Below are positions 34,546-58,575 of a stretch of 64,000 nucleotides of DNA, in pieces. The DNA lies in IMG/VR virus record IMGVR_UViG_3300031920_000341, positions 62,001-126,000 of that record; one strand, 5' to 3'. Origin of the DNA: a virus. The stretch's first letter is position 1. Each line of letters starts with the position of its first letter. The position numbers and the translations under genes were made by a program. The notes beneath the pieces were generated by a model that was not told the DNA's origin, made no database searches, and worked only from the letters and a program-made list of their open reading frames with translations.

Positions 34546-34938
34546 TTATAAGAGTAGGTTTTTTGCGCAAATAGCTGCAATTTTACTATCATACTGACCA
34601 GGATAATTTTCGTTTAGGAAGTCCATGACGTCTCTTATGCTTCTAATAGTAGGATTTTCTAACTTTTCTATAAAATGCTTTATACGGGCATTTAATTCAT
34701 CATTAGGTATCATTTTAGGAAGGTATAACTCAAGATATTTATTTTCTTCTTCGGTATTCGTTAATTTATTATTAGCAATCATCTTTTTAATGATTTTAAT
34801 AATTTCAATATCAGTTGGATCTTTACCAATTTTATTATCAACTTCACCAAGTAGTGTTGATAATACTAATCTCATTTCTTTATCACCATTCCGTAATGCA
34901 AAAAGTTTATGATCGGTAATCTTTTCTTTTAATGTCAT
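34546..34938 (-). CDS. YqeY/GatB C-terminal-like protein
   Basis: 130 residues, close to the ~150 of bacterial YqeY. Conserved pattern: LKEKITDHKLFALRNGDKEMRL (LxxxIxxxxxxAxKxxDKxxxxxLR), EVDNKIGKDPTDIEIIKIIKKMI, EEENKYLELYLPKMIPNDEL (E..xLxxYLPxxLxxxEL). The YqeY fold equals the C-terminal tail of GatB, which contacts tRNA in the Asp/Glu-tRNA amidotransferase; function of stand-alone YqeY is unsettled. It follows the tRNA-His gene by 28 bases, so it is probably co-transcribed with the tRNA cluster. Confidence 0.85.
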   Translation of the reverse strand: MTLKEKITDHKLFALRNGDKEMRLVLSTLLGEVDNKIGKDPTDIEIIKIIKKMIANNKLTNTEEENKYLELYLPKMIPNDELNARIKHFIEKLENPTIRSIRDVMDFLNENYPGQYDSKIAAICAKNLLL

Positions 34939-34966
34939 ATTTTATTTTTTTTTTTTAATATTCAAG

Positions 34967-35040
34967 GGTGCCAAAAAAGGCTCGAACTTTTACTTCTAGA
35001 ACCACAATCTAGTGTGCTAACCAATTACACCAAAGGCACC
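34967..35040 (-). tRNA. tRNA-His (anticodon GTG)
   Basis: Cloverleaf on the minus strand: D stem GTG/CAC, anticodon stem CTAGA/TCTAG with loop TTGTGGT, T stem AAAAG/CTTTT with loop TTCGAGC. The extra 5' G(-1) opposite discriminator C73 is encoded, the His tRNA hallmark. The two acceptor pairs next to the body are T-T mismatches. No CCA encoded. Last tRNA of the cluster. Confidence 0.92.
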
Positions 35041-36465: not shown

Positions 36466-36490
36466 TATTTAGTTTATTAGTTTAAAATTG

Positions 36491-36563
36491 CACGTATGAC
36501 AGGCTTCGATCCCGTGACATCCACTTTTGGAGAGTGGCACTCTACCAGCTGAGTTACATACGT
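36491..36563 (-). tRNA. tRNA-Trp (anticodon CCA)
   Basis: Minus-strand cloverleaf: acceptor ACGTATG/CATACGT, D stem ACTC/GAGT, anticodon stem CCACT/AGTGG with loop CTCCAAA, T stem ACGGG/CCTGT with loop ATCGAAG, discriminator G. No CCA encoded. Confidence 0.93.
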
Positions 36564-37058: not shown

Positions 37059-37125
37059 TCATATTGATTATTTTTACTGCATTATTAATTATAAATTATA
37101 CGAACTTTAATATTAAAGTTTTAAG

Positions 37126-37209
37126 TGGAAGGTGAGAGGATCGAACTCTCGCAAGTGTTACCTTGTCTCAGATTAGCAATCTGGCCCGTTACCACTCCGG
37201 CAACCTTCC
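37126..37209 (-). tRNA. tRNA-Ser (anticodon GCT)
   Basis: Minus-strand class II tRNA: acceptor GGAAGGT/ACCTTCC, anticodon loop TTGCTAA (anticodon GCT, reads AGC/AGT), a long variable arm, T arm GAGAG-TTCGATC-CTCTC. The first pair of the anticodon stem is C-A, a mismatch. Discriminator appears to be A. Confidence 0.9.
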
Positions 37210-37247
37210 ATATTTAACTGTATTTTTCAAAGAACTTTATTATAAAG

Positions 37248-37330
37248 CGGAAAGTAAACGAATCGAACGCTCATCTGTAACGATGGCCTGGATTTCAAGT
37301 CCAGTTAGACACCATTGTCTGCTACCTTCC
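37248..37330 (-). tRNA. tRNA-Ser (anticodon TGA)
   Basis: Minus-strand class II tRNA: acceptor GGAAGGT/ACTTTCC with one G-T pair, anticodon stem CTGGA/TCCAG with loop CTTGAAA (anticodon TGA, reads TCA), long variable arm, T loop TTCGATT, discriminator G. First tRNA after the leader terminator. Confidence 0.92.
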
Positions 37331-37336
37331 ATAAAT

Positions 37337-37367
37337 AAAAAAACCGAGACTAATAAAGACTCGGTTT
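37337..37367 (-). terminator. Intrinsic terminator of the tRNA-cluster leader
   Basis: Minus-strand stem AAACCGAG/CTCGGTTT with an 11-base loop followed by seven T, directly upstream (7 bases) of tRNA-Ser(TGA). It must be read through for the tRNAs to be made, and its 5' arm also matches an upstream antiterminator segment. Confidence 0.85.
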
Positions 37368-37445
37368 GTAAAAAGTATGATTAAAAATAAAAATTAAGCA
37401 TTACTTGGCCGAGTCGCAAATATGTGACTAGATGAACTGGACCAA
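37337..37445 (-). promoter_or_regulatory. Putative ribosome-controlled attenuator upstream of the tRNA cluster
   Basis: Three exclusive pairings on the minus-strand RNA. Segments 1:2, TTGGTC (37440-37445) with GGCCAA (37405-37410). Segments 2:3 (antiterminator), GACTCGG (37409-37415) with CCGAGTC (37358-37364), seven perfect pairs. Segments 3:4 (terminator), AAACCGAG with CTCGGTTT. Segment 1 lies over the Ser-Trp-Ser codons of a leader ORF, so a stalled ribosome would free segment 2 to pair with 3 and block termination. This matches the classical amino-acid-operon logic; its use for phage tRNA genes is inferred from sequence alone. Confidence 0.6.
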
Positions 37446-37471
37446 CTGTGTATGTATAATATTTTTCTCAT
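37394..37471 (-). CDS. Leader peptide, Ser/Trp/His-rich (25 residues)
   Basis: A 25-codon ORF beginning MRKILYIH, then SWSSSSSH, then IFATRPSNA and stop. The codons include seven Ser (one run of five, using TCC, AGT, TCA, TCT, AGT), one Trp and two His. These are exactly the amino acids of the four tRNA genes that follow (Ser-TGA, Ser-GCT, Trp, His). The stop is 26 bases before the terminator stem. It is too short for a stable enzyme, so its coding content probably acts by ribosome stalling. Confidence 0.65.
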   Translation of the reverse strand: MRKILYIHSWSSSSSHIFATRPSNA

Positions 37472-57744: not shown

Positions 57745-58575
57745 TTAAAATGCAGGGGTAAGATGATAAGGAAATTTATTTTCTGTTTCAATTACATTTA
57801 ACATATTTTTGAATATTGACGGATTAAATTCTTTTGGACCAATAAATACACGGTTCATCATTACTATATCTTTGGCTAAATAAATTCCTTTATTTACAGA
57901 ATTACGTTTATTCATATTAACGTAAAATGAATTAGAAGTTTCAATTGGATCGTTATTATCAAAATTATATTCAATAATTTTTTCAAGTAATTCTTCATTA
58001 TCTTCATCATTAAGAAATTCAACTTCAAAACATTTTGTCATTTCATGTAAATAAGTAAGTTTATTGCCAAAAGATAATTTCCAAACTTGATGTTTAGATT
58101 TAAATCCGTCAGTAATTATAATATAGACAGAATCATCATTTTGATGTAATTTATCATTTTCAAAATAGAATGAGCCTTCTGACATGAATTCAATCATTTC
58201 TTCAAGATAATTAGTTATGTTTTTATCAAGTATTTCTTTAGTATTCCAAATAACATTTGCAGTATCACTAAACTTACTATCTTCTTTGAAATCAGCAAGT
58301 AACATATCAAGCATTTTATCATTCTTAATTTTCTTAAGTCTATTGTCATACATTTTATTTTCATCAATAAATGTATTAAGATTTAGTGCATGATATATTA
58401 TTTCATAAAAATGTTTGAAGTTTTTATTTTTTAAAGCATCATTGTATTGTTTATCCGCATTCAGAATAGTTAATTCAACCATTTCCGGATCTATTAAATC
58501 CTTATTTGGTTTATCTAACGTAATCCAATTATATGGTAATAATTCTTTCGCCTTAATTCTTCTAGCCATTATCAT
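57745..58575 (-). CDS. Hypothetical protein
   Basis: 276 residues if translation starts at 58575 (MIMARRIKAKELLPY); a start at 58569 (MARRIKAK) keeps an A/T-rich ATAAATAATT-like box at the same 11-base spacing seen before other starts, so I slightly prefer it. Mostly helical and charged with no cysteine. No family. It lies in opposite orientation between two baseplate genes, which is unusual and may mark an inserted gene. Confidence 0.7.
   Translation of the reverse strand: MIMARRIKAKELLPYNWITLDKPNKDLIDPEMVELTILNADKQYNDALKNKNFKHFYEIIYHALNLNTFIDENKMYDNRLKKIKNDKMLDMLLADFKEDSKFSDTANVIWNTKEILDKNITNYLEEMIEFMSEGSFYFENDKLHQNDDSVYIIITDGFKSKHQVWKLSFGNKLTYLHEMTKCFEVEFLNDEDNEELLEKIIEYNFDNNDPIETSNSFYVNMNKRNSVNKGIYLAKDIVMMNRVFIGPKEFNPSIFKNMLNVIETENKFPYHLTPAF

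Follow-up and report, generated by a model that had tools for sequence, protein, structure and literature searches.

Known attenuators and phage tRNA operons

The closest described systems are the trp and his attenuators of the enterobacteria, which share with the locus described here a short leader ORF carrying control codons, RNA segments 1 to 4 and a terminator placed before the first gene. The theory of ribosome-mediated transcription attenuation has been set out (PMC1183508), and it predicts that basal readthrough will be low where the stop codon lies in or beyond segment 2, as it does both in trp and his and in the phage attenuators. The present locus differs from these in being phage-borne, in having tRNA genes rather than amino-acid biosynthesis as its output, such that the molecule sensed is also the product, and in that phage leaders of this kind often address several amino acids at once and are matched to isoacceptors. 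In a biosynthetic operon the regulated genes would serve to synthesise the amino acid or to aminoacylate its tRNA; here the downstream genes are tRNAs, and it is inferred from sequence alone that the phage attenuator acts like that of an amino-acid biosynthetic operon without being one.

Three further systems bear comparison. In T-box riboswitches the choice between terminator and antiterminator likewise responds to the state of a tRNA, but they bind uncharged tRNA directly and without translation, whereas the phage leader would sense it through the codons of an ORF; Rfam scans gave no T-box match at the gathering score, nor any weak match at E up to 10. The tRNA operons of T4 and T5 are also clusters of phage tRNAs supplementing those of the host, but their tRNA runs differ in having no leader peptide and terminator in front. 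Phage tRNAs are able to rescue infection from tRNA-degrading defence; in T5 it is tRNA-Tyr, reportedly expressed from a strong promoter, that works against retron-Eco7, which degrades tRNA (PMC11555353). Antitermination in rRNA operons involves a boxA similar to an element found in the phage attenuators, in which it is accessory and not the sensor. No description of a phage tRNA attenuator was found in the open-access literature (subscription papers and preprints were outside the search), and the main text of those papers on huge phages, Lak phages and jumbo phages that were consulted makes no mention of attenuation or leader peptides. This agrees with an earlier note on the locus, which knew of no described attenuator of this kind. 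The inferred mechanism is that of trp and his; what is probably new, as far as the open-access literature allows this to be judged, is the product under control and the feedback.

Leader, terminator and tRNA genes at the locus

The DNA analysed, referred to as the window, is a stretch of 64,000 nucleotides comprising bases 62,001-126,000 of a 208,266-base virus record, and the proposed attenuator lies on its minus strand, as do the leader, RNA segments, terminator, tRNA genes and boxA-like element located in it below. The source virus is an AT-rich T4-like myovirus of a type known from Bacteroidetes phages; it encodes a gp23-like capsid protein, a large terminase and a tail sheath, and its relatives include PAU, MA9V, Lak, the huge phages LR756500 and LR745206, and others. 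It carries 14 tRNAs in three clusters, each of the three preceded by a leader.

The leader ORF of the window (37394-37471) runs from an ATG at 37471 to a TAA at 37394 and has 25 codons plus the stop, encoding MRKILYIHSWSSSSSHIFATRPSNA, with seven Ser, one Trp and two His. Codons 8-16 (37424-37450), CAC AGT TGG TCC AGT TCA TCT AGT CAC or HSWSSSSSH, are the putative control codons, and all nine can be decoded by four phage tRNAs encoded downstream. These are tRNA-Ser(TGA) (37247-37330), which would be the first gene regulated, tRNA-Ser(GCT) (37125-37209), which decodes AGT in the leader, tRNA-Trp(CCA) (36490-36563) and tRNA-His(GTG) (34966-35039), the last tRNA of the cluster; the latter two lie 0.6 and 2.1 kb further along, with protein ORFs intervening. 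Of 3,562 short ORFs in the phage only this one has nine Ser, Trp or His codons in a row, the runner-up having five, and by arithmetic the chance of a run of nine is about 6e-10 per position at a background of 0.095 per codon.

The intrinsic terminator (37341-37367), formed by AAACCGAG/CTCGGTTT and followed by seven T with the T run extending to 37337, begins 26 nt past the stop codon of the leader. Segment 1, TTGGTC (37440-37445), pairs with GGCCAA (37411-37406) in a pause hairpin of -4.1 kcal/mol. Segment 2, GACTCGG (37409-37415), is the 5' strand of the antiterminator and occupies leader codons 19-21, such that the control codons sit 35 to 11 nt upstream of it, and segment 3, CCGAGTC (37358-37364), is part of the 5' arm of the terminator. 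The 2:3 pairing comprises 7 bp at -9.2 kcal/mol, close to the -9.3 of the 3:4 pairing; a 2:3 duplex as strong was attained by 2 of 300 dinucleotide shuffles, and the folding of the leader region (z = -3.5) was matched or beaten by 1 of 200. The earlier note had claimed the 25-codon ORF and its composition, a terminator 26 bases beyond it, three mutually exclusive pairings and four tRNA genes for serine (TGA and GCT), tryptophan and histidine in the same direction, and all of this held when read from the sequence. The sequence features by which leader-peptide attenuators are recognised, a cognate-codon ORF, a terminator, an exclusive antiterminator and appropriate codon placement, are all present, and codon identity, spacing, exclusive pairings and terminator position are shown by the sequence.

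It is very likely (about 0.9), as an inference from sequence without expression data, that the locus is a ribosome-mediated transcription attenuator of the trp/his type for phage tRNA genes. In the proposed mechanism RNA polymerase would transcribe the short leader, whose codons are those of the tRNAs encoded just downstream. Where the charged tRNAs are plentiful, the ribosome would clear the control codons and cover segment 2, the 3:4 terminator would form, and transcription would stop before the first tRNA. Where any one of them is scarce, whether made in too small amount, uncharged or destroyed, the ribosome would stall 10-36 nt upstream of segment 2, which could then pair with segment 3, and transcription would continue into the tRNA genes. 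The circuit would be one of negative feedback, in which a shortage of a tRNA turns on the genes for that tRNA; that it senses such a shortage and controls those genes is inferred from sequence alone. Translation of the leader, stalling, readthrough, the response to tRNA supply, the benefit and the physiological trigger are likewise inferences, and the direction of regulation, which is unmeasured, rests on the order of the pairings and the established logic of attenuation.

An alternative is that the hairpin merely terminates the upstream gene, that another promoter makes the tRNAs and that the Ser-rich ORF arose by chance. Genes often end in an intrinsic terminator, and a 107-aa gene does end about 138 nt before the leader. 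The interval between the T run and tRNA-Ser(TGA), however, is only about 6 nt, too short to hold a separate promoter. In addition, the order of cognate ORF, terminator and tRNA recurs in many phages, survives 20,000 permutations and is missing from controls and host tRNA genes. This explanation is all but excluded, and attenuation remains the preferred reading.

No promoter of the window's leader was identified, the automatic scan being uninformative in AT-rich DNA. Across phage leaders a TATAWA box lies within 50 nt upstream in 26 of 40 cases (13.1 expected), though not before that of the window. A boxA-like GTTCTTTGA (37227-37235) lies between the two tRNA-Ser genes; of 31 attenuators, 12 have a boxA-like TTCTTTGA(C/A) after the terminator, against a chance of about 0.005 per 40 nt, and in Bacteroidota a related element precedes the 23S start by 60-213 nt (41 of 80 hits). 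By inference, such an element may protect RNA polymerase, after readthrough, across the untranslated tRNA stretch. The boxA-like TTCTTTGA was also seen within a tRNA cluster at L163, near 19208. An Rfam scan of the leader revealed no cryptic tRNA or known riboregulator, just weak terminator look-alikes. The tRNA-Ser(TGA) gene itself is unusual, scoring under the Rfam tRNA threshold and showing weak likeness to the tRNA-Sec model, and directly 3' of tRNA-His is a gene for a YqeY-like protein (34546-34938; PHROG 'tRNA amidotransferase').

The other two clusters of the same phage present a mixed picture. Leader B, MRRTNISLRLRTARIRPLGLILRCR, on the plus strand at L162:17500-17577 (genome 182799 on), precedes tRNAs Arg-ACG, Leu-TAA, Ile-GAT, Arg-CCT and Cys, and 17 of its 24 codons specify R, L, I or C (P 2e-7, judged by composition). 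It has no recognisable terminator, failing that criterion for leader-peptide attenuators, and folds no better than shuffles; it may possibly operate by a different route. Leader C, MKQILNIQVTKATKRTPDFNYEGDPSCNTRGKKSVCM, precedes Pro, Asn, Thr, Lys and Asp tRNAs, with a strong terminator lying immediately in front of tRNA-Pro and possibly an antiterminator; its codon match is weak alone (P 0.04), yet of 31 clusters its own scores highest. Leader B bears on a second rival, in which a stalled ribosome alters how the tRNA precursor is processed or degraded and not transcription termination. In its favour, tRNA 5' processing is needed close to the hairpin, and leader B matches its tRNAs yet lacks a terminator. 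Against it, the hairpin, T run and competing segment are required by attenuation and unneeded for processing, and nearly all leaders except B have a hairpin and T run immediately before the tRNA with the competing segment inside the leader. Processing or decay is very unlikely to be the explanation, and termination is retained as the regulated step.

Several minor features accompany these clusters. Two odd untranslated stretches, L163:19402-19730 and L163:1-180, lie beside tRNA-Thr and tRNA-Ile without an Rfam match, one of them holding an apparent tRNA that escaped detection and has a long variable part. Probable homing endonucleases, judged by eye, are found among the tRNA genes at L162:18539-19182 and L164:80-937, the former with an HNH-like Cys/His motif, also judged by eye.

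Leaders and their tRNAs in relatives and huge phages

The exact orthologue of the window's leader was not found in the collections scanned. Searches by tRNA-Ser or by terminator pattern returned nothing, or chance matches; viral contigs held no useful direct relatives of the neighbouring genes, and in distant relatives the exonuclease neighbourhood is without tRNAs, local synteny being uninformative. Relatives with a terminase about 41-46% identical have tRNA clusters of the same design, for different amino acids. Among them, ILRPSIRRS leaders are found ahead of Ser-TGA, Arg-TCT, Pro, Ile-TAT, Met and Leu-TAA; KEDDLLED leaders ahead of Glu, Asp, Met and Leu-TAG; NGCYQTVAFWAKGK leaders ahead of Phe, Lys, Trp, Arg, Cys and others; and an HTTSSSSSRRPITH leader ahead of Ser, Thr, Arg, His and Pro. 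The architecture extends to the huge phages Lak, LR745206 and LR756500-LR756504, where QQIQQQQ is found before three Gln tRNAs, FQQQQQQQ before four, NPQPQDQDP before Pro/Asp, SKHSKHFSSSSKWF before Trp/His/Phe/Lys/Ser, HIIHIWEHLLEEV before His/Glu/Val/Trp/Leu, KKKK before four Lys tRNAs, FWHFHF before His/Phe and, in Lak-B1, CMHPVCGMIHMFPCGGGR before His/Pro/Arg/Gly/Cys/Met. Many leaders share a short start, M-K/R/N-x-x-x-x-N/Y-I (L166-L177, L194-L205, the window and L163); past it, the match to the tRNAs is kept between families but the peptide sequence is not. Shine-Dalgarno sites were seen before 1 of 40 leaders. Attenuators stand at 96 of 318 tRNA-run starts in these phages, many starts being without one.

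For statistical comparison, leaders were chosen by position alone, as the longest ATG ORF of 12-60 codons ending near a terminator, and the match of each to its own tRNA cluster was compared with its match to other clusters. The mean z of 40 non-redundant leaders was 2.98 for their own tRNAs and -0.08 for other clusters, and the highest mean z in 20,000 permutations was 1.01; 31 leaders entered a further test. Some candidates picked in this way mismatch their tRNAs (e.g. L272, L166 -7261). For amino acids with two codon classes, with the expectation taken from the codon usage of the phages, 80 of 102 codons fall in the isoacceptor class of the phage's own tRNA and 22 do not (61.7 matches expected, z 4.0): ATA, AGA and TTA codons precede Ile-TAT, Arg-TCT and Leu-TAA, and ATC and CGC precede Ile-GAT and Arg-ACG. 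The isoacceptor match, like the recurrence, is shown.

This match bears on a third rival, a sensor of amino-acid starvation through uncharged tRNA, as in the trp and his operons, with the phage tRNAs a by-stander output. The mechanism cannot distinguish an uncharged from a missing tRNA, which favours this view. Extra tRNA would give no relief from amino-acid starvation, however, and the leaders match the isoacceptor of their own cluster beyond the amino acid alone, and starvation sensing is accordingly regarded as very improbable. The trigger named by the earlier note, uncharged or scarce Ser, Trp or His tRNA, remains an inference as to whether the tRNA is uncharged, destroyed or insufficient; tRNA shortage is the reading followed here.

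The placement of codons and the pairings were consistent across leaders. In 35 attenuators cognate codons make up 66-71% of positions 36-10 nt upstream of segment 2 (22% expected) and fall towards background from -9 nt on; the control region as a whole has 67% (27% expected, z 19.7) and segment 2 onward 25% (21% expected). This peak and drop fit the prediction of ribosome stalling. The 2:3 energy averages -12.8 kcal/mol with a leader's own terminator and -7.8 with those of others (0 of 20,000), complementarity being individually significant at 5% in 25 of 31 leaders. In two leader families the segments covary three ways: cluster-2 leaders mostly have TCAGAGG/CCTCTGA/TCAGAGG, with CCGAG/CTCGG/CCGAG in L166 and L260, and in cluster-3 leaders TTTGAT..ATCAAA alternates with TTCGAT..ATCGAA. 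Of the checks proposed in the earlier note, the one on relatives supports its reading: the arrangement recurs in dozens of phages with amino acids that differ as the tRNAs do, covariation is found, and the refuting case of a leader not conserved gave the opposite result, though the exact leader has no orthologue. Its attenuation interpretation is supported by codon match, isoacceptor class, spacing and complementarity far above controls.

Two observations on coding in these genomes may be added. In the relatives L096, L097, L098, L102 and L110 the reading frame of the exonuclease gene contains TAG or TAA, which suggests stop-codon recoding. Lak-B1 (L207) has a tRNA with anticodon TTA, and LR756501 (L202) has two with anticodon CTA.

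Phage G, control genomes and meaning

Bacillus phage G, with a Bacillus host, offers an independent case. Its annotated gp86 (58381-58515), MMKCSWFEFDTDFTDVFYCEYTFYSLYTFLD..., precedes a terminator and tRNAs for Cys, Asp, Phe, Tyr, Glu, Thr, Ser and Trp; 26 of 43 codons are cognate (P 6e-4), and its competing pairing was attained by 2 of 500 shuffles. Annotation errors are predicted on this reading, in that gp86, to which no function is assigned, would be a leader peptide. A bolder interpretation, which is likely, is that the tRNA supply of the huge phages that infect Bacteroidetes, and independently that of phage G, is modular and meters itself: the leader of each sub-operon would register, one codon after another, which of its tRNAs are short, allowing detection and repair of translation shortages, those caused by host tRNA-cleaving defences included. 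If this is true, phage tRNAs are made on demand and the leader itself tells which tRNAs the phage finds limiting; why phages carry tRNAs becomes directly testable, with leaders as natural reporters of the tRNAs scarce during infection, whether through codon-usage mismatch, host shut-off or tRNA-cleaving defence. Attenuation would be extended from metabolic operons to the translation machinery.

Control genomes largely lack the arrangement. The proteobacterial jumbo phages XacN1, GAP32 and Atu_ph07 gave 1 case in 51 and the chromosome of Sphingobacterium mizutaii (Bacteroidota) 1 in 37, neither matching its tRNAs. With controls and host tRNA genes essentially without it, the attenuator therefore looks like a phage trait, and it is probably not a feature borrowed from the host. 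In T4, T5, KVP40, Klebsiella phage ATCCa, Moby and S-PM2, an ORF and terminator occur at 3 of 54 tRNA runs. A leader-like ORF in KVP40 was set aside as uninformative because its cluster spans nearly all amino acids. The sole possible codon match among the three cases is that of Stenotrophomonas phage Moby (L423, about 2000-2130), where MNNMYSQNQFCKWSVEDAGHRSVFESC and a terminator precede Trp, Cys, Lys, Asn, Ala, Val and other tRNAs; with a z of 3.2 and an unconvincing segment 2, it is a possible attenuator in a proteobacterial phage.
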